Positions 25,036 through 47,506 of a stretch of 64,000 nt of DNA are shown in pieces (within the stretch, counting starts at the first letter, position 1; the number at the start of each line of letters is the position of its first letter). Position numbers and translations under genes: made by a program. The DNA is from Acidobacteriota bacterium (GTDB taxonomy: Bacteria > Acidobacteriota > Thermoanaerobaculia > Multivoradales > J023). The notes under the pieces were generated by a model. The model made no database searches and had not been told where the DNA came from. It saw nothing but the letters and a program-made list of their open reading frames with translations. The DNA lies in the NCBI GenBank assembly GCA_029263395.1, contig JAJCXO010000214.1, forward strand, positions 1 through 64,000. Direction: 5' to 3'.

Positions 25036-25340
25036 ATCAACCCCGAAGGGGTTCGATACCACAGCCCAGGGTCAGCTGGCGCGAAGCGCCGCGCCACCCT
25101 GGGTTCAGGACGCAGTTGAATTTCAACCCTGGAAGGGTTGCATAACTCAGCTCTGACCGCCTCGATCGACCGTTATGGGACCCTTTCAGGGTTCGGTTGT
25201 TTGGAGATCCCGTTACTGCGCTTACCCTGGGCTGTTGGATGCAACCCCTTCGGGGTTGGAAGGCAACACACTCCAACACTCGGGGTTGTAAGGCAGCACC
25301 TTCCAACACTCGGGGTTGGAAGACAACTGCTTCCAGAGCA
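25036..25340. repeat. Hairpin-rich intergenic repeat region (AACCCCGAAGGGGTT type)
   Basis: The 363-base gap between the sugar transferase and the FdtA gene holds no gene but many palindromic units: CCCCGAAGGGG near 25040, GCGCGAAGCGCC near 25080, CAACCCTGGAAGGGTTG near 25125, GACCCTTTCAGGGTT near 25180, and CAACCCCTTCGGGGTTGGA followed by two imperfect ACACTCGGGGTTGGAAG-like units up to 25340. The inverted halves CAGCCCAGGGT and ACCCTGGGTT frame the first part. Elements of this kind are dispersed intergenic repeats in several phyla; function unknown. They sit inside a leftward operon and could affect its transcript. Confidence 0.8.
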
Positions 25341-25382: not shown

Positions 25383-26066
25383 CTACTTACGGGACGACAA
25401 CTGGGGATTCGACAACGGAATCGGCGGGGTCCAACGCGGCTGGAGCCCCAACACCTTGAGCACCATCACCCATGCCGTCTCCGCCATCAGCCGCACATCA
25501 TAGGCCAAGGATCGATGATGCACGTAGTGCAGATCCGCGGCTAGTTTGGCATCCAACAGCTCACGGACATAAAACTCTTCCGGACCCACTCCATCTTCGG
25601 GCCGCAAATGCTCTTGGTAGACGTAGTAGTAGAGGCTTCCCGAGCACGTCAAGCCGGGCAAAATCGACAACGCTTCACGGTGCGCGGCTGTGTAGTGCTC
25701 CTCGACGATATTGATCGATTCCGGGCGCGGGCCAACCAACGACATCTCGCCACGCAACACGTTCCACAGCTGAGGTACTTCATCGAGTTTGGTGAGCCGC
25801 AGCACCCGCCCCAGGGGCGTCACCCTGGCATCGCCACCAACGGTCACCGAACCTTGGCGATCGGCGCCATCGGTCATGGTCCGCAACTTGAGCACATCGA
25901 ACGGCACCCCATCCCGACCTGCTCGCCGAGCACGGTAGAGCACCGGGCCGCGGGAGGTCAGCTTGATCAAAATGGCCAGCACCAGCAAGAGCGGTGCGGT
26001 CACCAATAGGCCAAGCGCCGAGACCAGCCAGTCGATCAACCGTTTGGTGCGATCGTAGAGCTTCAT
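25383..26066 (-). CDS. Bacterial sugar transferase (polyprenyl-phosphate sugar-1-phosphate transferase)
   Basis: The ATG at 26066 gives 227 residues (a GTG directly before it is also possible). One N-terminal hydrophobic helix (LVSALGLLVTAPLLLVLAIL) precedes the catalytic domain with VLKLRTM, RLTKLDEVPQLWNVLRGEMSLVGPRPE, typical of small PglC/WcaJ-type monotopic phosphoglycosyl transferases. It starts repeat-unit synthesis by moving a sugar phosphate from a nucleotide donor to undecaprenyl phosphate. It heads the leftward block; together with the Wzy-like gene it marks the locus as lipid-linked polysaccharide assembly. Confidence 0.92.
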   Translation of the reverse strand: MKLYDRTKRLIDWLVSALGLLVTAPLLLVLAILIKLTSRGPVLYRARRAGRDGVPFDVLKLRTMTDGADRQGSVTVGGDARVTPLGRVLRLTKLDEVPQLWNVLRGEMSLVGPRPESINIVEEHYTAAHREALSILPGLTCSGSLYYYVYQEHLRPEDGVGPEEFYVRELLDAKLAADLHYVHHRSLAYDVRLMAETAWVMVLKVLGLQPRWTPPIPLSNPQLSSRK

Positions 26067-26067
26067 C

Positions 26068-26136
26068 ACGTTGGCTCGATAACACGTGGCTCGATCACAC
26101 GTAGCCCCATTACAGACGTGGCCCGATCACAGACGG
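26068..26136. repeat. Imperfect 15-17-bp tandem repeat in the divergent promoter region
   Basis: Four imperfect units close to ACGTGGCYCGATCACA start at 26068 and run to about 26136, immediately upstream of the sugar transferase start. They lie between the divergent sugar transferase and sulfurylase genes and could carry or displace promoter elements. Confidence 0.65.
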
Positions 26137-26193
26137 TTTCACGGCAGCTTATCCCAAGTCGCTGTATCTGGAGTTGTGTTACGATCTCTGGCT

Positions 26194-26211
26194 GTGGCGA
26201 GTTCTCGCCAC
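26194..26211. promoter_or_regulatory. Perfect inverted repeat upstream of the PAPS synthetase gene
   Basis: GTGGCGAG and CTCGCCAC are separated by two bases, about 113 bases before the ATG of the sulfurylase-kinase gene. It may be a dimeric repressor operator or a leader hairpin. No run of T follows, so it is not a terminator on the plus strand. Confidence 0.4.
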
Positions 26212-26323
26212 ACCTCTCCAATTCAAAACAACGACGGTAGATCTTAGCAGAGCCCTGGATTCCAGCGCTGGATACCGTCTCGCTGGCCCCTCGCCGGCCA
26301 TAGGGAATTACGAAAGGACTGTC

Positions 26324-28048
26324 ATGCCCAATCATCTTATTGCACCTCATGGTGGCGAACTTGTCCAGCTAATGGTCTCCGAAGAACGCCAACAAGAGCT
26401 GCGCCGCGACTCGGTCGACTGGCCCTCCTGGGACCTCACCGCCCGCCAGCTGTTCGATCTCGAGCTCATCCTCAACGGCGGCTTCTCACCGCTCAGAGGC
26501 TTCATGGGCCGTCAGGACTACGACTCTGTTTGCGACTCGATGCGCTTGGCTGATGGCACCCTATGGCCGATCCCGATCACCCTCGATGTCACCGAGGCGG
26601 TAGCCAAGGGTCTCGCCGAAGGCTCCAAGCTTGCCTTGCGCGATCCCCAGGGCTTCATGCTGGCGGTCCTCACCGTCACCGACGTGTGGGCGCCCGACCC
26701 TGAGGCTCAGGCGAAAGCCATCTTCGGTACCAACGACAGCGCCCACCCTGGAGTCGCTCACCTCAACGACCGTACCAACACCCATTCCGTCGGCGGCACT
26801 CTCGAAGGTCTCCAACGGCCACAACACTATGACTTCGTCGAGTTGCGTCACACCCCGGAACGGCTGCGTCGCGACTTCGCTCGTCTCGGCTGGCGCAAGA
26901 TTGTCGCCTTCCAGACCCGCAACCCGATGCATCGGGCCCACATCGAGATGAGCCTGCGGGCCTCCCGTGACCTCGAAGCCAGTCTGCTGGTTCATCCGGT
27001 GGTCGGTACCACCAAGCCCGGTGATGTGGACCATTACACCCGCGTGCGCTGCTACCAGGCGATCATGCCGCACTTTCCCAAGCACACCGCGATGTTGTCC
27101 TTGCTGCCATTGTCGATGCGCATGGCGGGCCCGCGGGAAGCGGTGTTGCACGCCATCATCCGCAAGAACTACGGCTGCACCCACTTCATCGTCGGCCGCG
27201 ACCATGCCGGCCCGGGCAATGACTCCAACGGCAACCCGATCTACGGCCCTTACGATGCCCAGGACATGATGCGCGAGCACGAAGAAGAGCTCGGGATCAA
27301 GATGGTGCCCTTCAAGCTGATGGTCTTCGCCGAAGACCACGGCGGCTACATGCCAGCGGACGAGTTGCCGAAGGACGCCCGCACGCTTTCGATCTCCGGC
27401 ACCGAACTGCGGCAGCGCCTGGCCGAAGGTCGACCGATCCCCGACTGGTTCACCTTGCCCGAGGTTGCCAAAGAGCTGCAACGCACTCACCCACCGCGCC
27501 ACAAAAGCGGCCTCACCGTCTTCTTCACCGGACTCTCCGGTGCCGGCAAATCGACCATCGCCAACGTCTTGATGGTCAAGTTGTTGGAAATGGGCGGTCG
27601 ACCGGTCACCCTGCTCGACGGTGACATCGTGCGCAAGAATCTGTCTTCGGAACTCGGCTTCTCCCGCGAGCACCGCGACCTCAATATCCACCGTATCGGC
27701 TTTGTGGCGTCCGAGATCACCAAGAATGGCGGCATTGCTATCTGCGCGCCGATCGCTCCTTACGCCAAGGTACGCGACGAGGTCCGCGACATGGTCAGCG
27801 CTGGCGGCGGCTTCATCCTGGTCCACGTCGCCACGCCGCTCGAAGTCTGCGAGGAACGGGACACCAAGGGGCTTTACGCCAAGGCCCGGGCCGGCAAGAT
27901 CGACAAGTTCACCGGCATCTCCGATCCTTATGAGATCCCTGAGGATGCCGACGTCGTGGTGCCAACCACCGACAACACACCGGAAGAAGCCGCACAACAG
28001 ATCTTGCTCCACCTCGAGCAAGAGAGATATATCGGCGCCGCCACCTGA
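26324..28048 (+). CDS. Bifunctional sulfate adenylyltransferase / adenylylsulfate kinase
   Basis: The ATG at 26324, with a GAAAGGA ribosome site, gives 574 residues, the usual size of this fusion; the longer frame upstream has no similarity. Residues 1 to about 390 are ATP sulfurylase, with QTRNPMHRAH and GRDHAGPG as the ATP and sulfate site. Residues about 395-574 are APS kinase, with the P-loop GLSGAGKST and later DGDIVRKNL. The product, PAPS, donates sulfate to glycans or feeds assimilation. No sulfotransferase or PAPS reductase is in the window. Its place beside the polysaccharide locus makes glycan sulfation one possible use. Confidence 0.93.
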   Translation: MPNHLIAPHGGELVQLMVSEERQQELRRDSVDWPSWDLTARQLFDLELILNGGFSPLRGFMGRQDYDSVCDSMRLADGTLWPIPITLDVTEAVAKGLAEGSKLALRDPQGFMLAVLTVTDVWAPDPEAQAKAIFGTNDSAHPGVAHLNDRTNTHSVGGTLEGLQRPQHYDFVELRHTPERLRRDFARLGWRKIVAFQTRNPMHRAHIEMSLRASRDLEASLLVHPVVGTTKPGDVDHYTRVRCYQAIMPHFPKHTAMLSLLPLSMRMAGPREAVLHAIIRKNYGCTHFIVGRDHAGPGNDSNGNPIYGPYDAQDMMREHEEELGIKMVPFKLMVFAEDHGGYMPADELPKDARTLSISGTELRQRLAEGRPIPDWFTLPEVAKELQRTHPPRHKSGLTVFFTGLSGAGKSTIANVLMVKLLEMGGRPVTLLDGDIVRKNLSSELGFSREHRDLNIHRIGFVASEITKNGGIAICAPIAPYAKVRDEVRDMVSAGGGFILVHVATPLEVCEERDTKGLYAKARAGKIDKFTGISDPYEIPEDADVVVPTTDNTPEEAAQQILLHLEQERYIGAAT

Positions 28049-28728
28049 TCGGACAACGCGTCCGCCAGAAGAGACAGACGCTGTCACCTTTCGCGGAAGG
28101 CAGTCCTGTTTTTTGGACACCGCCCGCCATCACCTGGATCCAGTGCGCCCCCCACCGGGGCGCCCTGTTCCCAATGATCGGCACTCGCCACCCGGTCATC
28201 CACTCGAGCGCCGGCCATTTCGGCACGGCCGATAGTGTTTGCTGAGCGCGACGCCAAGCTACGTTCTCGACCGCACCTCCGTCTAAGCATGGGGACCAAG
28301 CGCGCCGGTCACGGGATGAAATAACGCAACCCTCGAGATCAAGATTTCAGTAGACATGGCGGGGCCGCCCAGAGAAGCTCTAGACGGCGACGGAAAGGAT
28401 AAAGGCGGGATGTGGGGTGGGATAAAGCGGGATCAGACGATCACGGACCCGTCTGACGTATAGATGGGTTAAAGGCGATTGCTCGCCCGGCAACTCAGGT
28501 TCAAGTGTGTGACTCGTTGCCTCATAACAGCAATCTATTTAGCAAACCGCATGCCAGCCTCGGAATCGGAAACAAGAATTTTCTGAAGATCGACCAGCAA
28601 CCCGCCACCACGTTTTGTACTGAATGCAATACACTGGGCCGCGAAATACTCGTATTCGTTTAAATACCAGGCTCGCTGGACAGTGCTGGCTGGACAGTGC
28701 TCACGGCAAGGTGGCAGGAGGATCGAGG
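28049..28728. other. 680-base intergenic region
   Basis: No convincing gene is seen between the PAPS synthetase and the ferredoxin reductase gene. It contains a G-rich direct repeat (28397-28433) and a two-copy 14-bp duplication (CTGGACAGTGCTGG, 28676-28703) just before the reductase ribosome site. The antisense frames here are extensions of high-GC shadow frames. A small RNA or leader cannot be excluded. Confidence 0.5.
28397..28433. promoter_or_regulatory. Direct repeat GGATAAAG-CGGGAT, two copies
   Basis: GGATAAAGGCGGGAT at 28397-28411 recurs as GGATAAAGCGGGAT at 28420-28433, with TGTGGGGTG between them. The repeated TGGGA/CGGGA pentamers about ten bases apart recall operators bound by MraZ-type regulators, but no mraZ gene is adjacent. 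The site is about 300 bases upstream of the reductase start. Confidence 0.3.
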
Positions 28729-29667
28729 ATGGCGAAACCCCTTTCCTACAACGCGACGTTGGTCGAGCGGATCGATCTCACGGAGCAGTTGGCAATCTTC
28801 AAGGTAAAGCCGGACGAGCCTGCCGAGGCAGATCCGCAGTTCATCCCCGGGCAATACGTCACCCTCGGCATGAACAACGAAGCGCAGGTCGAGTTGGGGT
28901 CGGTGCGGCGCCCGATGTCGATCGCCTCCGCTCCCGAAGAACGTGACGCGCTCGAGTTCTACATCCGTTACGTCAACTACCCGGAGTCCGACAACCCGCT
29001 GACCCATTTGCTGTGGAAAGCCCAGCCCTCGGATCGCCTCTTCATGCGCAACCGAGCGATCGGCAAGTTCACGGTCCACGACGCTGTTGGAGACGATGAT
29101 CCACGCCTGCGGGTTTGCTTGGCCGCCGGTACCGGTTTGGCACCCTTCGTCAGCATGGTGCGCAGTCTCCATCTCGGTGACCCTTCAGCGGACCTCGGTC
29201 AGTACGCCATTTTGCACGGCGCCTCTTACCCCGCGGATCTCGGCTATCGCGACGAGCTCACGGACCTCACCCAACATGGCCTTCGTTACATGGCAACGGT
29301 CAGCCGTCCGAACGAGGCCCCGGATTGGTCCGGGGACGTCGGGCGCGCCGAGGACTATTTCAAGGCAGATCGTTTACCCGAGCTCGACCAGAGGCTGGGT
29401 CTCGGCCCGGATGGCCTGCGTCCAGACAACGCAGTTGTCCTGATCTGTGGACTCCAAGGGACCATCGGCAAAACTATCCTGCGTCTGATCCCACGTGGCT
29501 TCGTGCCCGATAACAAGAAGATTCGCCGTGCGCTCGAGGTGCCGGAGGACGTCCCAGCCAACTTGTTCTTCGAGCAATACGACAGCACCCCGGTCATCGA
29601 CGTCAAAGATCCAGCGGTGGTCGAGCCCCTGCGCGAGCAACTCCACGCCGCACTCGCCAAAGTTTGA
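28729..29667 (+). CDS. Ferredoxin-NADP reductase-like flavoprotein
   Basis: The ATG at 28729 follows a strong AGGAGG site and gives 312 residues; the longer frame is not supported. The FAD domain is shown by FIPGQYVTLGM and RRPMSIAS, and the NADP domain by CLAAGTGLAPFVSMVRSL and later VVLICGLQGTIGK. Members pass electrons between NADPH and ferredoxin or flavodoxin. It has no fused ferredoxin domain. The cytosine methyltransferase gene starts just after its stop and is likely co-transcribed. Confidence 0.88.
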   Translation: MAKPLSYNATLVERIDLTEQLAIFKVKPDEPAEADPQFIPGQYVTLGMNNEAQVELGSVRRPMSIASAPEERDALEFYIRYVNYPESDNPLTHLLWKAQPSDRLFMRNRAIGKFTVHDAVGDDDPRLRVCLAAGTGLAPFVSMVRSLHLGDPSADLGQYAILHGASYPADLGYRDELTDLTQHGLRYMATVSRPNEAPDWSGDVGRAEDYFKADRLPELDQRLGLGPDGLRPDNAVVLICGLQGTIGKTILRLIPRGFVPDNKKIRRALEVPEDVPANLFFEQYDSTPVIDVKDPAVVEPLREQLHAALAKV

Positions 29668-29687
29668 GCGGCAGCGGTTCGTCTTCT

Positions 29688-30614
29688 ATGACCGCAGCCC
29701 GAAAGCCATTTCGGGTCGTCGAGTTCTACAGTGGTATCGGTGGCTGCGCTGCCGCTCTCGGCAGCTTCGAGCCTCAAGTCGAAACCCAGACGGTTGCCGC
29801 GATCGACATTCATCGCGGTGCCCTGGACGTTTACGCTCACAACTTCCCCCACCCAACGGTCCCAGCACTGGTCAAATCGCTCACCGTCGAGCGCTTGCAG
29901 CGGTGGGACGCTCACTTGTGGTGGCTGTCCCCTCCCTGCCAGCCGTTCACTCGGCGCGGCCATCAGCGTGACCTCGACGATCCACGAGCTGCCACCTTCC
30001 TCGCTGCCTTGGATCGTATCGCCGCCGTTCGCCCGCCCTACGTCGCGCTCGAAAATGTCCCACCCTTCCGAGAGTCTCGGGGGCACCAACGGCTGATCGC
30101 AACCCTAGAGCAGGCGGGCTACACCAGCCTCCACGAAAGCCTGCTCTGCCCTTCCGACTTCGGTATTCCCAATCGTCGCCAGCGCTACTACCTGGTTGCC
30201 GCACGCGGCGACCTGCTGCCCTTGCGATCACCCAGCTATGTCGGGCACCCGTTGGCAGCCTACCTCGATTCTGAGCCGTCATCCGCGCTCGAGGTCGAGC
30301 CCACGCTCCAAGAGCACTACCGTTTCAGCCTGCACCTCGTGCACGCTGACGATCCCGACGCCATCACCCAATGCTTCACCTCCGCTTACGGACGTTCCCC
30401 CGTCCGCAGCGGTTCTTATCTGGAACATTCCAACGGAGTCCGCCGCTTCTCGCCAAGCGAGATCCTGCGTCTACTCGGTTTCCCCGCGAGCTACCGGCTA
30501 CCGCCGGGGCTATCCCTGGGCAATGCCTGGCGGCTGGTCGGCAACAGCCTCTCGATTGTGCCAGTGCGGTCGATTCTCGCCGCTATCCCTGAGTTTTCGT
30601 CGCTCGAGTCGTAG
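29688..30614 (+). CDS. Dnmt2/TRDMT1-like cytosine-5 methyltransferase
   Basis: The protein has 308 residues from the ATG at 29688 (316 from an overlapping TTG at 29664). All core C5-methyltransferase motifs are present: VVEFYSGIGG (I), VAAIDIHRGAL (II), LSPPCQPFTRRGHQRD (IV, catalytic Cys84), ALENVP (VI), GIPNRRQRYYLVA (VIII), and RRFSPSEILRLLGFP (IX-X). The motif IV extension, NFPH after the second strand, and especially CFTSAYG with a following GSYL match Dnmt2, which methylates C38 of tRNA, rather than restriction-type enzymes. The target-recognition region is short. No restriction endonuclease gene is nearby. RNA specificity is inferred from these motifs. Confidence 0.82.
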   Translation: MTAARKPFRVVEFYSGIGGCAAALGSFEPQVETQTVAAIDIHRGALDVYAHNFPHPTVPALVKSLTVERLQRWDAHLWWLSPPCQPFTRRGHQRDLDDPRAATFLAALDRIAAVRPPYVALENVPPFRESRGHQRLIATLEQAGYTSLHESLLCPSDFGIPNRRQRYYLVAARGDLLPLRSPSYVGHPLAAYLDSEPSSALEVEPTLQEHYRFSLHLVHADDPDAITQCFTSAYGRSPVRSGSYLEHSNGVRRFSPSEILRLLGFPASYRLPPGLSLGNAWRLVGNSLSIVPVRSILAAIPEFSSLES

Positions 30615-30667
30615 CTTCAACGCCAAGCTCGAATTCCCCGAAAGTGATGGCGACTTGGCGCCGCCGA

Positions 30668-30880
30668 CTAAGCCTCCAACGTGCCAAGCTCCTTCTCTAC
30701 GCCGGCCATCTCCCCCAGCATCTGAGTGTACTTTCTGAGATCAACTTGGAGGGTGGTGAGATCTGACAGTTCTTTAGACGCCTTGCTCTCGCCAAATAAA
30801 AGAAGCCACGCGGTGACGCGTGGCTTCAACGCCGACAGAACGCCGGCACGGCTCGAGAGGCCGTCTTCGATCAGGTGAGG
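30668..30880 (-). other. Open reading extension downstream of the MscS-like stop codon
   Basis: After the TAG that ends the channel gene, the same minus-strand frame stays open for 70 codons, through the terminator hairpin, to a TAG at 30670-30668. The last 40 codons encode a charged, helix-forming peptide (for example KASKELSDLTTLQVDLRKY). There is no good start codon or ribosome site, so it may be a decayed or chance frame. Confidence 0.25.
30794..30827 (-). terminator. Rho-independent terminator of the MscS-like channel gene
   Basis: GAAGCCACGCG and CGCGTGGCTTC form a perfect 11-bp stem with a 4-base loop (30802-30827). Read on the minus strand it is followed by TTTTATTT, so it should end transcription of the channel gene, about 55 bases after its stop codon. 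Confidence 0.88.
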
Positions 30881-32077
30881 CTAGCTGTCGTCGGACTCGC
30901 GCCACGACTCGATGACGCGGGCGGCTTCTTCACGGCCACCGAGGCCAAAGGCGAGGCCACCAGCGATGGAGATGCCGACGATGAGTGCGCCAAAAGCGAG
31001 GTTGACGATTTCAGGCGCAAGCTCGGTTTTGTGCAAGGCCATGGCGCCGACCAAGATCAAGATGGCGAAGCGGGCGACGGTGGCCAGAATTGCGGCTTGC
31101 TGATGGCCACTGGCGGTGATTGCTTTGTGCGCCAGACGACTCAGGAAGAGGCCAATGGCGAAGATCACCACGGCAATCAGCACCGAGAACATACCCTGCA
31201 TGAGCTCGTTGGCAAGACCGGAGACGATGGCCAAGCCGAGGGTGTTGAAGGCCTGGATGGAACCCATGAAGAGGATGACAATCATCACGACCCAGCCGGC
31301 GACCGAGGACGCCGAGGAGGCGCCTTCTTTCGGCTCGCCGAGACCCAACCACTCGGGGAGCTTGTTGAAGCCGATCGTCGCCAGCAGGTTGGCCACCAGG
31401 CGTTGGACGATCCGTGCCACCAGGTAGAAGATGAAGAAGATCACCACCGCGCCGAGCAGGTTGGGCAAGAAACCGAGGATCTCACCAACCATGTCTTTGA
31501 CCGGCGACAACCCTTCCATCTGCAAGGCGTCGAGGACCTGTGGCAAGAAGAGCAGGAAAATCAAGTAGTAGACACCGTCCGCCAGGGTCGACGCCAGGGA
31601 CATCGCCTTGGTTTCTTCGCCAGCGGAGTCGCCGAGCTTTTCGTCGAGCTGGAAGGCACTGAGCAGGTTCTTGACCACCATCCGCAGCACCGTGGCAACC
31701 GCCCAGGCAATCGCCGCCAACGCACCGGCAGCCAAAACTTGCGGCAAGAACCCCATCACTTTGGTAGCCAACGCATTGAGCGGCTCGGTCACGATCGTGA
31801 GGCCAAGTGCCTGCAGCACCGCCATGATGACAAACAGCATGACCAGCCAATAGGCGAGTTGCGCCATGCCAGCTTCGATCGGCGCGTCTTTCGATCGCCC
31901 ACCGGTTATAAGCTCAGCGAGTTTGTTGTCGAGCTCGGTTTTGTCGAGCAGTTTTTTGATCAGGTAGGAGGCGGCTTTGGCCACCATCCAACCGACCACC
32001 AAAATGACAATCGCCTTGAGCAGCGGAATGCCGTATTCGGTTCCGATTGCGAGCAATTGGTTAGTATCAATATTCAT
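30881..32077 (-). CDS. Mechanosensitive-channel-like membrane protein with conserved TM helix repeats
   Basis: The ATG at 32077 has an AAGGAG ribosome site and gives 398 residues; the upstream extension in the longer frame is not supported. The protein has repeated units of about 85-100 residues, each with a helix pair ending in a conserved glycine/alanine-rich pattern such as VAKAASYLIKKLLDKTELD, VVLRMVVKNLLSAFQLDE-like and VARIVQRLVANLLATIGF. This matches the conserved TM helix family (PF05552) found in CmpX-type relatives of MscS, without the cytoplasmic MscS vestibule. A role in osmotic response is likely but not proven. The gene is monocistronic with its own terminator. Confidence 0.85.
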   Translation of the reverse strand: MNIDTNQLLAIGTEYGIPLLKAIVILVVGWMVAKAASYLIKKLLDKTELDNKLAELITGGRSKDAPIEAGMAQLAYWLVMLFVIMAVLQALGLTIVTEPLNALATKVMGFLPQVLAAGALAAIAWAVATVLRMVVKNLLSAFQLDEKLGDSAGEETKAMSLASTLADGVYYLIFLLFLPQVLDALQMEGLSPVKDMVGEILGFLPNLLGAVVIFFIFYLVARIVQRLVANLLATIGFNKLPEWLGLGEPKEGASSASSVAGWVVMIVILFMGSIQAFNTLGLAIVSGLANELMQGMFSVLIAVVIFAIGLFLSRLAHKAITASGHQQAAILATVARFAILILVGAMALHKTELAPEIVNLAFGALIVGISIAGGLAFGLGGREEAARVIESWRESDDS

Positions 32078-32136
32078 GAAACTCTCCTTTGGATTGGATA
32101 ACAACAAGCAAAAATTCAAGTTGCTTATGAAGCAGA

Positions 32137-32211
32137 TCTGCACGGAACAGGTCTGTGCGGAAAAGGTTTGTGCGGAACGGGTCTGTGCGGGGCAGGTCCG
32201 TGCGGAAAAGG
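32137..32211. repeat. 15-bp tandem repeat, five copies
   Basis: Five units close to TCTGTGCGGAAAAGG start at 32137, 32152, 32167, 32182 and 32197. They lie 60 bases upstream of the channel gene start, within the 531-base gap shared with the TetR gene. In one plus-strand frame they read as five-residue repeats, but without a start site. Confidence 0.88.
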
Positions 32212-32448
32212 TCAGTATTGAAGACCTTCGATACGACGCAACGGTCAGCCTTCGAATGGCAGGTCGCTACCGGATTGGATCAAACAGGACGATCCGGTAC
32301 TCAATGCTCGTCGAGCCTCGGCGTCAGCCGACTCGGCCACGACTACTGAGAAGGGATCGTTTAACTATATAGCAATTCCGGTACCAGGCCGCTACAAACC
32401 ACGAATCCGCTTAGCTACGGCTTGTTTCGGTGATCCATCGACGAGTTT

Positions 32449-32494
32449 GGCCGGGAGTTTTGGGCAGGCCGGGAATTTTGGGCAGGCCGGAAAA
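32449..32494. repeat. 18-bp tandem repeat, two and a half copies
   Basis: GGCCGGGAGTTTTGGGCA at 32449 recurs at 32467 and in part at 32485. Together with the two-copy 18-bp duplication at 32580-32615 (GAGCCTGCGATCTAG), which runs into the stop region of the TetR gene, it makes up much of the gap between the channel and TetR genes. No gene is seen in 32212-32608. Confidence 0.8.
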
Positions 32495-32608
32495 TCTTCC
32501 TCACCCCATTAGAATCGACTCTATCGACCTCTAGGCGCCTGCCGAGGGTCATGTACAAGTGACTCCTGGAGCCACCCACGAGCCTGCGATCTAGCGCGAG
32601 CCTGCGAT

Positions 32609-33286
32609 CTAGATGTGGCGACCGCGGGGTCGGCTGCGCTCGACGTCGGTGCGAGTGACCTTGGGGTCGGGCGTCGCCGGGGGATCGATGATCAGTCCAC
32701 GCAGGGCAAGCTGAGTCACCTGATTCACCAAATCATCGGGCTCGATCGAGCTGTCGCTCTTGTACCAGAGCACAACGCCGTGCACCATGCCCAGGACGCT
32801 GTGTGCGGCGACGTTGGGATCGAGTATGGGCATACGATTCTGGCGTTCGAGCACCGCCACGATGCTCTCGCGGAGGAAATCGGTGAAGGCGCGTTTGCGC
32901 TCCATCACCTTCGGCCGGTAGGCGGCGTCCAGACCTTCCTCTTCGTTGACCAGAATATTCATCGAGCTCGGCTCGTCGATCACCAGCCGAACGTAGCCAG
33001 CCAACAGGCTGGCGAGGCGTCCCTCAGGATCGTCCCCCTCACGAGCAATCGCGATCACATCCTCCTCGAGTAGATTGAGGACGAAGTTCATGATTGCGTA
33101 GAGCAGCGCTTTCTTGCCCTTGATGTAGTAGTAAAGACCGCCTTTGGTCAGGTCGACGATCTCGGCGATATCGCCCATCGAGGTGGCATCAAAGCCCTTC
33201 TCAGAGATAATCCGCGCCGCTTCGCGATAAATATGGATAGCGCGAGCATCATCGTTGACCGTTGGTGGCTTCTGGTATGTGGGCAT
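32609..33286 (-). CDS. TetR/AcrR-family transcriptional regulator
   Basis: The 225-residue protein has an N-terminal TetR helix-turn-helix at about residues 18-62 (AARIISEKGFDATSMGDIAEIVDLTKG, then LYYYIKGKKALLYAI) and a helical ligand domain. The pattern GGLYYYIKGKKALL is close to fatty-acid and acyl-CoA responsive members, but the ligand is unknown. The last residues are basic (ERSRPRGRHI). The gene downstream on the same strand is the channel gene, and upstream lies the SLC13 permease; either could be a target along with itself. Confidence 0.9.
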   Translation of the reverse strand: MPTYQKPPTVNDDARAIHIYREAARIISEKGFDATSMGDIAEIVDLTKGGLYYYIKGKKALLYAIMNFVLNLLEEDVIAIAREGDDPEGRLASLLAGYVRLVIDEPSSMNILVNEEEGLDAAYRPKVMERKRAFTDFLRESIVAVLERQNRMPILDPNVAAHSVLGMVHGVVLWYKSDSSIEPDDLVNQVTQLALRGLIIDPPATPDPKVTRTDVERSRPRGRHI

Positions 33287-33929
33287 TGCTGGCGCCTTAT
33301 CTCATAGGATTTCTTCTATCGCTGCAAGGAGTATTCAAGGCTGAAGGTATCCGATACTCCTAAGGTCACTGGCCTAGTCGAGCTATGATACAAAATCTTC
33401 GACATCGGCTTCCTAATACGATATTTCGAAACGTGAGGAAGAGCCGAGCGTTGCTCGGGTCCCATTGCTGATCCAGACCGCTTCTCGAACAACGGCTTCT
33501 AGACCTCTTTCTGTTGCCTGTTCCAGATTAGCCCCTTGCTAGCCTCTCGCCTCTTCAGTCTGCGTGACCTGCAGCTGGCTTAATGACCGGTCGGTAGAAT
33601 AGGTTGTCGCCCTATTCCGTGTCAAGGTGATCAGAGGTGCCTCCCGGGCCTCTGAAGAGGGCTCAACAGACCCGTTTCACGCTCCATCAGCACCCTGCCG
33701 AACCCACTCCTGAACCTGCTGGAACAGCATCAGGCGACACCGAGAAAGCCTCATATTATCTTTCTCTTGCACCCACACTCTCTAAATATCAAACATATTC
33801 TTTTGTTTCGCGCAAATACTCGCGAGATTAGTCGCCAGACCTGTGTAGTGCGCCTCGGCGAAGCTGACGAATCCGGCCCAGACCAACGGGCCCAGAGTTA
33901 CGGGCCCAGAGTTACGCCAACAGACGGGC
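33287..33929. other. 643-base intergenic region with TetR-type palindrome
   Basis: No gene is supported here. It contains a palindromic ACCGGTCGGT site (33583-33596), a more AT-rich stretch (33750-33830), and a two-copy 14-bp duplication ACGGGCCCAGAGTT at 33886-33913 just past the SLC13 stop. The promoter of the TetR gene should lie near 33290-33400. Confidence 0.5.
33583..33596. promoter_or_regulatory. Candidate TetR-family operator
   Basis: ATGACCGGTCGGTA contains the palindrome GACCGGTC extended to ACCGGTCGGT. Operators of several TetR-family regulators contain ACCGACCGGTCGGT-like cores. It is about 300 bases upstream of the TetR gene, farther than typical autoregulatory sites. Confidence 0.35.
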
Positions 33930-35753
33930 TCAGAATTTCCAGATCTGGGGGATAAGCAAAACGCTCACAACAAAGTACATCAGGTTGAGCGGCAAGCCGA
34001 TTTTGACGAAGTCCGAAAATCGATACCCGCCCACACCGTAAACATAAGTGTTGGTCTGATAGCCGATCGGAGTGGAAAAGCTAGCGGACGCTGCGATGCA
34101 GGTGGCGATCACAAAGGGCCGAGGGTCAACACCGATAGCCGGCCCCAGACTGAGAGCGATCGGCGCCATCAAGACGACAGTGGCGTTGTTGGACAACGTC
34201 TCGGTCATCACCATGGTGCCCAAATAGAGCAGCGCCAGGATCACGTAAGGTCTGAAGCCCTCGCTGATGAAGCTGAGACTACCCATCGTCACCAGACTAT
34301 CGGCGATGACATCGGCAGTACCGGTGGTCTGCATCGCCAGGCCGATGCCAAGCATGCCGTAAATCAGGCCGAGGATACTCCACTCGATCGCAGCATACCC
34401 TTCCTTGGGCTGCAAGCAGCCAGTGAAGAAAACCGCCACCATGCCGATCAGCGCCGCGGCAACAATTGGCAGGATATTCAGCGAGACCGCCAAGATGACC
34501 CCAACGGTGATCGCTAAAACCGCTGGCCCTTTGCGGCGCATGCTGAGTGAAGGCACTGGCGGATGATCGAGCAACAAGATGTCGTCTCCCCGTCGCAGCC
34601 GGTCGATGGCGGGATCTGTGCCCATCATCAGCATCAGATCACCGGCTTCGATGCGCAGCGTATCCATCTTTTTTTGCAGATTGACGCCGCGGCGATGGAT
34701 CGCGATCAAGATGACCCGGAAGCGTTGGCGAAAGCTGATCTCTTGCAATGTTCGTCCAACCAACGTCGACCGCGGGCCGATTACACCTTCGACAATCGAC
34801 CCCTCATGAGCCGAGATCGTCTCGAGCCCAACGCCTTGCATCGGCGCCAGATCGATGCCTTCGATCGTCCGGGCATGAGCGATACCCGACGGCCGGCAGG
34901 CCAGGACCAGCCGATCCCCTTCGAGCAGCACCGCTGTTTTGGGATCCTCCACAGCCAGCGTAATATCGTCCCGGATGATCTCGAGTACCCGCACGCTTTG
35001 TTGACGCAGCAGTTTCGATTCAGCAATCGACTTACCGACGATGGGCGAATCGTGCTGAACAAATGCTTCCGTAATGAACTCTTTGCGTTCTTCGTCCGAC
35101 AGCAACGACGTCAACGTCTCCCGCGTCGGCAACAATTTGTCGCTAAAGAAAAAGAGATACACCACTCCGCCGACCAACAGAGGCAGCCCAGCAGCACCAA
35201 TCTCGAACATCGAAATCGGTGCCTCACCAGCCTCCACCAATTTGCTACTGGCCAAAATATTGGTGCTGGTGCCCACCAAGGTGCAGGTACCACCAAAAAT
35301 AGATGCATAAGACAGCGGAATCAACAACTTCGAGGCCGGCACTTTCATTGACCGTGAAAGCATCAAGACCACCGGCATGAACACCATCACCACCGGCGTG
35401 TTGTTGATGAACGCAGAAATCGAGGCGACGCATAACATCAAGATGAGTAGAAACCAGCGATAACCGTATCTCGCCAACTTTTCGAGTCCAGCAGCAATCA
35501 GTTTGATAATGCCGCACTTGTCGAGGGCAGCACTGAGAATGAACATGGCCGCGATGGTCATCGGCGCTGGATTGGCAAACACCGTCAACATCTGTTCGAT
35601 GCTGGGCAATGTATTCGTAAACGGCAAGCTGCCCGCTGCCATGATGACGACAAAAGCCGTTAACGCGGTCTGATCAGTAGGTATTCTCTCCGCCAAGAAG
35701 CTGGCGATCGTTGCCAGCAACAAGACGATGATAAAAATCATTTCCCAGGACAT
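33930..35753 (-). CDS. SLC13-family permease with two RCK_C domains
   Basis: The ATG at 35753, preceded by GGAG, gives 607 residues (GTG at 35759 is the alternative). Membrane helices at both ends flank a cytoplasmic insert of about 190 residues with two TrkA_C/RCK_C-type domains (residues about 205-290 and 300-385, the latter ending GDLMLMMGT). The permease halves carry the family signatures FINNTPVVMVFMPVV and FGGTCTLVGTSTNIL in the first half, and LSNNATVVLMAPIAL with PIGYQTNTYVYG in the second. Such proteins import sulfate, dicarboxylates or other anions with sodium. Sulfate is a possible substrate given the PAPS synthetase nearby, but this is speculative. Confidence 0.92.
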   Translation of the reverse strand: MSWEMIFIIVLLLATIASFLAERIPTDQTALTAFVVIMAAGSLPFTNTLPSIEQMLTVFANPAPMTIAAMFILSAALDKCGIIKLIAAGLEKLARYGYRWFLLILMLCVASISAFINNTPVVMVFMPVVLMLSRSMKVPASKLLIPLSYASIFGGTCTLVGTSTNILASSKLVEAGEAPISMFEIGAAGLPLLVGGVVYLFFFSDKLLPTRETLTSLLSDEERKEFITEAFVQHDSPIVGKSIAESKLLRQQSVRVLEIIRDDITLAVEDPKTAVLLEGDRLVLACRPSGIAHARTIEGIDLAPMQGVGLETISAHEGSIVEGVIGPRSTLVGRTLQEISFRQRFRVILIAIHRRGVNLQKKMDTLRIEAGDLMLMMGTDPAIDRLRRGDDILLLDHPPVPSLSMRRKGPAVLAITVGVILAVSLNILPIVAAALIGMVAVFFTGCLQPKEGYAAIEWSILGLIYGMLGIGLAMQTTGTADVIADSLVTMGSLSFISEGFRPYVILALLYLGTMVMTETLSNNATVVLMAPIALSLGPAIGVDPRPFVIATCIAASASFSTPIGYQTNTYVYGVGGYRFSDFVKIGLPLNLMYFVVSVLLIPQIWKF

Positions 35754-35984
35754 GAACACTCCGATATCGCAGGTCTCTCAGTCAACCATCTCTTACAAGT
35801 ACGACTTACAAGAAGGACAGCCTGCGATCTGGATCAGGCACCAAAGCGCCACCCCCACACACCACCGAATCTTTAGCGCTTGATCTTGCGAAGCGAACTC
35901 GAGTACCGCGTCAAAACAACCCCAAACAACAGACTCGGGCAGTGGCTCGAGCTGATCCCAGGCCGACGCGGTCCCAAGCAGGAC

Positions 35985-36569
35985 CTACCCCTCGGCTTGC
36001 TTGAGCTTCTGAGTCAACTGCCGAATCGCACGTTCATTGTAGCCACGGACAACCTCACCGTCGAAGTCAATCAGTGGTACCCCGCCGCGACCACCAGCCT
36101 TGGCGCGGTACTCTTGCGCGGCCTTGGCGTCCTTTTCGATGTCCTTGGCCACGAAGTCGGCATCGAGCGACTCGAGCAGCTTGCCGGCCTTACGACAGTA
36201 GCCACACCAACTGGTCATGTAGAGAGTGATCTTGGCGTCTTCGTCGGTGGCAGCCGCCTTGGGGTCGTCGGCAGCCGCGGCCGTTGCGGAGTGGCTCGCG
36301 TTCGGCACATAGGGCCGGCCCTGTTTGACTGCGGTCGCCTCTTCACTGGCTTCCAAATCAACAGCATCGAGCTTCAGGCTCTGTCTGGCGCCAACCAGGT
36401 CGATATAGGTCAGCGTCTTGCCGTTGACGATCCAGGGACCACGCGTCTCGATCATCTTCCCTTCCAGAGTGATCAACCAATCCGCTGCGGCGGCCGGGGC
36501 GAGCAGCAGGGCGACACTCAGTCCGATGGCATTCTTCAGGTGACGGGGCAGCCGCGAGGTGTTGGGCAT
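35985..36569 (-). CDS. Exported glutaredoxin-domain protein
   Basis: The 194-residue protein starts with a signal peptide (IGLSVALLLAPAAAADW). Residues about 30-75 resemble a small DUF4124-like beta segment, followed by an Ala/Asp-rich linker and, from about 108, a glutaredoxin fold with ITLYMTSWCGYCRKA (CxxC active site) and GGVPLIDFDG with the cis-proline. It should act as a thiol-disulfide protein in the periplasm. It stands alone between intergenic regions of 225 and 432 bases. Confidence 0.85.
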   Translation of the reverse strand: MPNTSRLPRHLKNAIGLSVALLLAPAAAADWLITLEGKMIETRGPWIVNGKTLTYIDLVGARQSLKLDAVDLEASEEATAVKQGRPYVPNASHSATAAAADDPKAAATDEDAKITLYMTSWCGYCRKAGKLLESLDADFVAKDIEKDAKAAQEYRAKAGGRGGVPLIDFDGEVVRGYNERAIRQLTQKLKQAEG

Positions 36570-41012: not shown

Positions 41013-41171
41013 GATTCCCGAAGGGAGGACACCAGGCCCTCCCCTACACGTCTCGGCAAAGGTCAGATTCCCGAAGGGAGGACACCAGGTCCTCCCCTAC
41101 AGATCTCAGCAAAGGTCAGATTCCCGTAGGGAGGACACCAGGCCCTCCCTACACGTCTCGGCAAAGCTCAG
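41013..41171. repeat. 53-bp tandem repeat, three copies, of a dispersed hairpin element
   Basis: Units start at 41013, 41066 and 41119 with GATTCCCG and contain GGGAGGACACCAGG followed by CCTCCC, which can fold as a hairpin. The same core occurs once at 43156-43196 and, inverted, at 51434-51480, always just outside genes. The array separates VWFA copies 2 and 3. Confidence 0.9.
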
Positions 41172-46882: not shown

Positions 46883-47171
46883 AAGAACCTCCAGGAGTTG
46901 ATCTCAATAGATGTCGGGCGGCGCAAAACGAGCACCACCAGCTCTGAGTTGCGAACCAGGAAACCTCACCTTGACGGAGTGGTCGAACCCTGTGGTTCGT
47001 CCACCGCGTCATCCTCTGACCTCCACTACGATCGAAGGCGCCAGGAAGTTCGGTGCTGAATTTTGGTTATTCTGCCGTGCAGCGGATCCCAGGCACCTGT
47101 TCGAGACTTTCTCACTGGAACCCTCAGTCGAACGTGGCCCGCGGTCGGCTCGCTCAGATACACACCCGCCA
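46883..47171. other. Intergenic region upstream of the beta-helix gene
   Basis: Part of a 907-base gap. It should hold the promoter of the leftward beta-helix gene; no gene is supported in it. The overlapping long frames on both strands come from GC bias and from the adjoining 42-bp array. Confidence 0.5.
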
Positions 47172-47506
47172 AACATCGAGTGCGCCCGCGTTGCTCTGTT
47201 TTCGCACGGCCAAACACCGAGTGTGTGGGCTTTTCCCGGTTGCCACACCAGCCAAACATCGAATGCGTGGGCTTTGCTCACTTGACGCACCCGCCAAACA
47301 TCGAGTGCGTGGACTTTGTTCGGTAGCACTACAAGCAAAACATCAAGCGTGCTGGCCTTGCTCGGTTGCAGCACGAGCAAAACATCGAGTGCGTGGGCTT
47401 TGTTCGGTTGCAGCACGGGACAAACATCGAGTGCGTGGGATTTGCTCGGTTGCGGCATAGGCCCAACAGCGACTGTGCGGGCTTTTCTCCTCTGAGCAAC
47501 GACCGT
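47172..47506. repeat. 42-bp tandem repeat array, about eight copies
   Basis: Units start at 47172, 47213, 47255, 47297, 47339, 47381, 47423 and 47465, each with AACATCGAGTGCGTGGGC or a variant, followed by TTTGYTCGGTTGC. Spacing is 42 bases except the first (41). Neighbouring copies can form a stem: TTGCTCG with CGAGCAA in the copy at 47339, and TTTGT with ACAAA in the copy at 47381. No unique spacers exist between units. Degenerate remnants (GAGCAAC, TTGCTCAA) extend to about 47590. Frames stay open by periodicity alone. Confidence 0.9.

Follow-up and report, generated by a model that had tools for sequence, protein, structure and literature searches.

We found that the gene at positions 29688 to 30614 (+ strand) of the window, by which we mean the whole 64,000-nucleotide stretch of DNA analysed here, encodes a real bacterial member of the Dnmt2/TRDMT1 family. 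This membership is firm. The substrate of the enzyme is most likely cytosine 38 (C38) of a tRNA, namely tRNA-Asp(GUC) and/or tRNA-Glu(CUC), and we put the probability of this whole reading at roughly 0.82. That the enzyme would act on RNA, that it would act at position 38 and which tRNA it would modify are all carried over from characterised Dnmt2 enzymes. On the basis of profile, structure and tree, we annotated the 308-residue product as a Dnmt2-family homologue and predicted tRNA cytosine-38 C5-methyltransferase.

Gene, motifs and family assignment

The genome assembly containing the window comprises 10.7 Mb in 291 contigs. Translation gave an intact open reading frame from an ATG at 29688 to a stop ending at 30614; an alternative TTG start at 29664 would make the protein 8 residues longer. 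The catalytic residues of a C5 methyltransferase are all present, on the + strand: C84 in motif IV (SPPCQPF, codon 29937..29939), E122 in motif VI (E122-N123-V124, 30051..30059), and R164 and R166 in the RxR of motif VIII (N162-R-R164-Q-R166, 30171..30185). In our alignment, the C84 column holds C in 31/31 bacterial rows, 4/4 eukaryotic rows and 21/21 DNA enzymes. The catalytic core and motifs I, IV, VI, VIII and X are common to the window protein and restriction-type C5 enzymes (M.HhaI, M.HaeIII and the HpaII/MspI type). The position of N162, on the other hand, is of Dnmt2 type, with N in 29/31 bacterial rows vs Q in 21/21 DNA enzymes. The CFT motif (C229-F230-T231, 30372..30380, + strand), a Dnmt2 hallmark as defined in excerpts of PMC3227630, lies beside motif IX, and the pattern CF[TI]..Y occurred in 0/21 DNA enzymes.

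We identified 11 Dnmt2-type columns (E12, A23, S81, F127, S130, P155, N162, F230, S243, F254, and L283), which are conserved in 85% or more of the bacterial rows, shared by at least three of the four eukaryotes, and present in no more than 20% of the 21 DNA enzymes, where they are not always at zero. The motifs quoted in the initial annotation were all found (NFPH at 52-55, SPPCQPFTR at 81-89, GIPNRRQRYYL at 159-169, CFTSAYG at 229-235, and GSYL at 242-245). Its description of them as particular to Dnmt2 holds for S81, N162, F230, and S243 and fails for the N of NFPH, PCQ, and RxR, which DNA enzymes also have.

A Pfam search of the product returned PF00145 alone (1.2e-33). When we searched the sequences of solved structures, the best PDB matches were five distinct Dnmt2 sequences (1.2e-43 to 9.2e-27): human DNMT2 (1.2e-43 and 4.6e-43), Spodoptera frugiperda Dnmt2 (8.8e-40), Schizosaccharomyces pombe Dnmt2 (7.7e-32), and Entamoeba EhMeth (9.2e-27). 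M.HhaI (1.1e-16) and M.HaeIII (9.9e-10) followed. The profile matches to Dnmt2s were near-full-length, with 176-245 bits vs 116 bits for HhaI. An AlphaFold2 model built from 4 sequences had a pLDDT of 80.2 and a pTM of 0.82, and was weak at 159-162, 231-233, and 235-238, partly in the CFT block. With this model, the top nine Foldseek hits were Dnmt2 chains (7.2e-26 to 5.8e-21), followed by HhaI (6.2e-18). VIA-align gave Z scores of 30.8 for 3qv2, 29.0 for 6fdf, 28.7 for 4h0n, 28.5 for 1g55, and 27.8 for 9hgm, with HhaI next at 25.8. The modelled fold is thus nearest to Dnmt2, with five Dnmt2 entries at the top by Z and nine Dnmt2 chains at the top by E-value. The proposal that this is a Dnmt2-like methyltransferase was borne out (human DNMT2 1e-43 vs M.HhaI 1e-16), with profile, fold and tree in agreement.

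The eukaryotic DNMT2/TRDMT1 proteins (human 1g55/9hgm, S. frugiperda 4h0n, S. pombe 6fdf, and E. histolytica 3qv2) share the near-full-length profile match, the fold, the CFT motif and the 11 columns with the window protein. However, the window protein is shorter (308 aa vs 327-348 in eukaryotic Dnmt2 PDB chains) and lacks an insert of 15-28 residues that lies between the CFT block and motif IX in the eukaryotic chains. Unlike eukaryotic Dnmt2, it has WW before SPPCQ, which is invariant in 15 aligned rows of its own clade, the CFT clade. Compact enzymes without the eukaryotic insert are candidates for structural work with tRNA.

Candidate tRNA substrate

In the established mechanism of C5 methyltransferases, a cysteine attacks C6 of the cytosine and a methyl group is transferred to C5. 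In the window protein, S-adenosylmethionine would be bound in the N-terminal Rossmann fold, Cys84 would attack C6 of the target cytosine with the aid of Glu122, Arg164, and Arg166, and the methyl group would pass to C5. The target would be C38 in the anticodon loop of tRNA-Asp(GUC) and/or tRNA-Glu(CUC).

We found 45 tRNA matches in the genome containing the window, analysed the best 30 of these 45 loci with ARAGORN, and read the positions by eye. The anticodon arms of tRNA-Asp(GUC) (CCGGC-CUGUCAC-GCCGG) and tRNA-Glu(CUC) (CCGGC-CUCUCAC-GCCGG) differ at base 34 only, and their variable loops are AGGUC and UAACA, respectively. Among the best 30 of the 45 loci, C38 was also present in tRNA-Val(UAC) and tRNA-Val(CAC), while Glu(UUC), Gly(GCC), Gly(UCC), and Asn had A38 and Val(GAC) had U38. 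Excerpts of PMC6409601 give CA-m5C-GCG as the context in the DNMT2 substrates tRNA-Gly and tRNA-Val and report that mutations in the variable loop reduce methylation. The CACGCC of the genome's own tRNA-Asp(GUC) and tRNA-Glu(CUC) agrees with this context in 5/6 letters. The Geobacter homologue methylates tRNA-Glu, according to passages of PMC4860778 and PMC5456315.

We searched 98 genomes with a tRNA-Glu pattern, which matched in 92, and counted the same-order genomes with a clear tRNA-Glu among the matches listed. For Glu(CUC), C38 was found in 18/18 genomes with the Dnmt2 gene (gene-positive) and 29/32 without it (gene-negative) among the 50 listed same-order genomes. A38 was found in 0 gene-positive and 3 gene-negative genomes (G008, G029, and G034) among the matches listed. 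C38 of tRNA-Glu(CUC) does not track the Dnmt2 gene in these 50 listed genomes (Fisher p 0.54, relatedness ignored). For Glu(UUC), all 47 listed same-order genomes, 16 gene-positive and 31 gene-negative, had A38 and none had C38. Glu(UUC) with C38 was observed in several other families of the class (e.g., G084 and G087). tRNA-Asp was read in the window's own genome only.

Queuosine at position 34 (Q34) stimulates some Dnmt2s. A tgt match was found in 94/98 genomes, including the window's own, with 92 over the cut-off, and queuosine genes do not discriminate gene-positive from gene-negative genomes. The window's genome also contains queA (381 bits) and a match to TIGR00276 (312 bits), which we take to be queG. 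Since tgt, queA, and the TIGR00276 match are present, Q34 can probably be made in this genome.

The initial annotation had proposed modelling whether the tRNA-binding surface is kept, and we compared residues with human DNMT2 at 12 lysine or arginine positions. Four of these (K254, K271, R288, and K363) we assume to be tRNA-contact positions, and eight were taken from papers (R84, R95, K122, R275, R289, K295, K367, and R371). In excerpts of PMC5456315, the human mutants with strong loss are K295, K122, R289, R371, K367, and R275, and R84 is counted as a key residue; R95 is named in a passage of PMC5995894. Only part of the surface was retained: 3/12 positions are kept in the window protein (R84 as R89, R95 as R100, and R371 as R282), while the other nine, and thus most of the contact residues compared, are replaced. 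Eight of the replacements, human residue first, are K122-P125, R289-D224, K295-S232, K367-G278, K254-A190, K271-T206, R288-P223, and K363-G274. Human R275 corresponds to H210, a column with R in 9/18 CFT-clade and 11/13 CFI-clade rows. As far as the aligned residues go, the human tRNA surface is not kept residue by residue, which neither shows nor excludes tRNA binding.

The Geobacter sulfurreducens enzyme (GsDnmt2), which we compared by description only, is likewise a bacterial Dnmt2 without K122, R289, and K295 in the available parts of PMC3227630 and PMC5456315. R371, which is kept in the window protein, is reported lost in GsDnmt2 as well, since excerpts of PMC5456315 describe an enzyme without K122, R289, K295, and R371. 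The same excerpts indicate that the tRNA-contact lysines and arginines are not defining for Dnmt2, being partly lost in Geobacter and Entamoeba. The Geobacter enzyme is reported to have partly lost the human-type residues and yet to methylate tRNA-Glu.

An RNA methyltransferase of Dnmt2 descent could also act on another RNA or position, such as tRNA-Val or a non-tRNA stem-loop, a possibility we consider unlikely. The two tRNA-Val species with C38 would fit it, as would the variation in Dnmt2 tRNA sets: with one exception these include C38 of tRNA-Asp, and some also include Glu, Gly, or Val (excerpts of PMC5372726). Dictyostelium Dnmt2 binds U2 snRNA (passage of PMC6409601), and part of PMC5456315 places the Geobacter tRNA-Glu site at cytosine 28, possibly in error for 38. 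In addition, R90 and R240 occur in every CFT-clade row (18/18) but vary in the CFI clade and in eukaryotes, which suggests that recognition may differ. However, this analysis yielded no positive evidence for another RNA, and C38 of tRNA-Asp(GUC) and/or tRNA-Glu(CUC) is the reading we prefer.

Tree, neighbourhood and DNA methyltransferases

We constructed a tree of 31 bacterial Dnmt2 proteins (window protein included), 4 eukaryotic Dnmt2 proteins, and 20 DNA C5 enzymes. The DNA enzymes comprised 9 from plasmids, 2 from phages, 1 from a viral contig, and 8 from Acidobacteriota chromosomes, including the second C5 enzyme of the window's genome. The sample is thin, with four eukaryotic rows and the Geobacter sequences left out. 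The split between the DNA enzymes and Dnmt2 had a support of 100/100, and the window protein lay on the Dnmt2 side with 30 bacterial and 4 eukaryotic proteins. Support was 99/92 for the eukaryotes, 91/71 for the bacteria, 99/99 for the CFT clade, and 100/99 for the CFI clade. When M.HhaI (two stretches) was added and four long-branch rows were removed, the Dnmt2/DNA split remained at 100/100, with 99/96 for the eukaryotes and 84/48 for the bacteria. The initial annotation had named placement among restriction or phage DNA methyltransferases as the outcome that would count against it; both trees gave the opposite, with a split of 100/100, and in neither was the window protein placed among DNA C5 enzymes. 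An AU test joining the window protein alone to the DNA enzymes gave p 0.10 and no rejection, a constraint that we read as only moving the root of the Dnmt2 part and not as testing membership.

No restriction endonuclease or specificity gene was detected beside the Dnmt2 homologue: we selected 7 proteins encoded nearby (25383 to 36569) for a PADLOC scan, and 0/7 matched any defence model. Within these neighbours, this agrees with the claim that the gene lies outside any restriction system. The window protein thus differs from restriction-type C5 enzymes in having no restriction gene among the neighbours scanned, in its signature columns, and in its side of the tree.

It is quite improbable, and slightly more so than another RNA substrate, that the protein merely resembles Dnmt2 and methylates DNA, as an orphan or restriction-type cytosine methyltransferase would. 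PADLOC type II methyltransferase models do match it (45 families, best 112.6 bits), with the catalytic domain in common, and the NCBIfam dcm superfamily scores 100.2 bits, just below the cut-off of 100.65; the scarcity of human-type tRNA-contact residues points the same way. However, it stands 100/100 apart from 20 DNA enzymes, has the Dnmt2-type columns, and has no nuclease model among the 7 neighbours scanned. The DNA-type C5 enzyme of the same genome also scores higher on the same models (280.9 bits vs 109.8 for the window protein on PDLC03378, and 142.9 vs 112.6 on PDLC03272). Matches in plasmids (177 records) and phages (369) were all below 60% identity, at 23.3-27.7% in the 35 rows listed. 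We therefore rejected a restriction or phage DNA methyltransferase on the basis of the trees, the PADLOC scan and these low identities. A viral scan with the window protein returned three weak matches only (27-33% identical). The DNA-type enzyme (L001, G000:C67:54741-55745) is the second C5 methyltransferase of this genome, with 280.9 bits to PADLOC MTase_II and a position on the DNA side of the tree.

Upstream of the Dnmt2 homologue, we identified a gene for an FAD/NAD(P)-binding ferredoxin-reductase-like protein of 312 aa (28729..29667, + strand) from profile matches, the ORF and relatives. Relatives align from residue 34-36 of the ORF as listed, which makes the ATG at 28729 the probable start. 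The gene ends 20 bases before the Dnmt2 start, and the two are likely in the same operon. They are adjacent in 5/7 genomes of the family (G000, G001, G002, G004, and G006) and on separate contigs in G003 and G005. Across 98 genomes (E 1e-20), reductase orthologues of at least 60% identity were found in f1 (7/7) and f5 (4/4) and in none of the remaining genomes, including those of f2, f7, and f8, which do have the Dnmt2 gene; ten other matches were 35-40% identical. The reductase, called a curious partner in the initial annotation, therefore does adjoin the gene in most of its family but is rejected as an obligate partner. Other neighbours in the window, named by eye, include sugar transferase, sulfurylase/APS-kinase-like, mechanosensitive-channel-like, TetR, SLC13-like, and glutaredoxin-like genes. 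The window also contains tandem arrays at 25250-25335 (30-base unit, x2.9), 41013-41171 (53-base unit, x3.0), and 47168-47489 (42-base unit, x7.7).

Spread and origin of bacterial Dnmt2

Geobacter belongs to a different phylum from the genome containing the window, which is one of the Acidobacteriota. The statement that bacterial Dnmt2 members are rare was correct in naming Geobacter but understated their occurrence: we found a member in 40/396 Acidobacteriota genomes, or about one in ten of this sample of the phylum, with 260-488 bits to profile A1. This profile was built from 15 sequences and 5 candidates were scored per genome; the next match below the 40 had 96.5 bits and covered positions 8-179 of 303 only. 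Most of the positive genomes (32/40) fall in one family, f38. Excerpts of PMC3227630 (2011) state that bacterial Dnmt2 was known only from Geobacter. We found no account of the acidobacterial family in the open-licence literature, which is weak evidence of absence, and automatic annotation may already carry the name.

In a search of 98 genomes (the window's own included), 45 matched at E 0.001 or better. There was a gap between 24/98 genomes at 1e-49 or better and the best match in any other genome (9.5e-13), and matches at that level and weaker are presumably ordinary C5 enzymes. Within the window's order, the gene was present in f1 (7/7), f2 (2/2), f5 (4/4), f7 (2/2), f8 (3/3), f3 (4/18), and f9 (2/8), and this search did not find it in f4 (0/24) or f6 (0/4). 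Stops that seemed to lie inside some relatives were found at the ordinary C-terminus in the members read (G021 left out).

The Dnmt2 homologue and its same-genus copy (G001) are 73% identical, with dN 0.17 vs dS 1.28, indicating purifying selection. It diverges faster than its neighbours, seven of which are 78-96% identical in the same comparison, and is the loosest of four genes by dN (reductase 0.06, TetR 0.03, and glutaredoxin-like gene 0.12). Given this divergence and the whole families of the order in which no copy was found, the gene is not core. Its GC3 of 0.72, near that of three neighbours (0.75-0.78), does not point to a recent arrival from elsewhere. We also consider it unlikely that the window lineage received the gene recently from a eukaryote, as its protein falls inside a bacterial clade whose distribution largely matches the families of the order.

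The hallmark of the window's clade is CFTSAYGRSpvRSGSYL or near, with TFT in 2/15 aligned CFT-clade rows. The f38 loci, together with G039 and G045 of the window's order, have CFI[GA]GY instead of CFT; the two positive genomes of f9 are of this CFI type. That the CFI type occurs in G039 and G045 as well as in f38 suggests that it has moved between remote lineages of the phylum.

In AU tests, joining the eukaryotes to either bacterial clade was not rejected (p 0.49 and 0.48). Given these values and the support for bacterial monophyly (91/71 and 84/48), the trees do not settle in which order the eukaryotic, CFT, and CFI lineages branched, and hence do not fix the direction of any ancient transfer. 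Tentatively, and with rather more doubt than confidence, we propose that Dnmt2 may be an old bacterial tRNA methyltransferase family, long present in Acidobacteriota as the CFT and CFI clades, from which eukaryotes may have acquired theirs; CFI may represent a second type in bacteria, with a distinct substrate preference. This reverses the published suggestion that Geobacter obtained Dnmt2 from eukaryotes, a source raised as possible in excerpts of PMC3227630. Passages of PMC12344493 (2025) describe eukaryotic DNMT groups as not closely related to one another or to their viral and archaeal counterparts, leaving both several bacterial donors and saturation possible. The wider interest lies in how deep and how widespread the bacterial family is. 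Its two deep clades, found in 40/396 genomes of one phylum, make the origin of Dnmt2 testable, together with its ancestral substrate (DNA or tRNA, and Asp or Glu). The acidobacterial enzymes also bear on the source of the human lineage's own Dnmt2.

At L009 (G046, on a 4840-base contig) we found a 68% identical copy that clusters with the window's genus, although 14/18 genomes of its family do not have the gene. The contig also carries a short stretch resembling the window's TetR gene, and the copy represents either a transfer or a misbinned contig. The CFI clade includes loci L029-L051 (f38), L096, and L097. At L154 and L158, both from f38 genomes, the CFI-type gene was found in the same setting: an ABC-F ATPase-like gene (EttA-like by eye) lies upstream of it, with one more ORF between the two in L154. 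A small futalosine hydrolase-like gene (by eye) lies downstream of the CFI-type gene at both loci.
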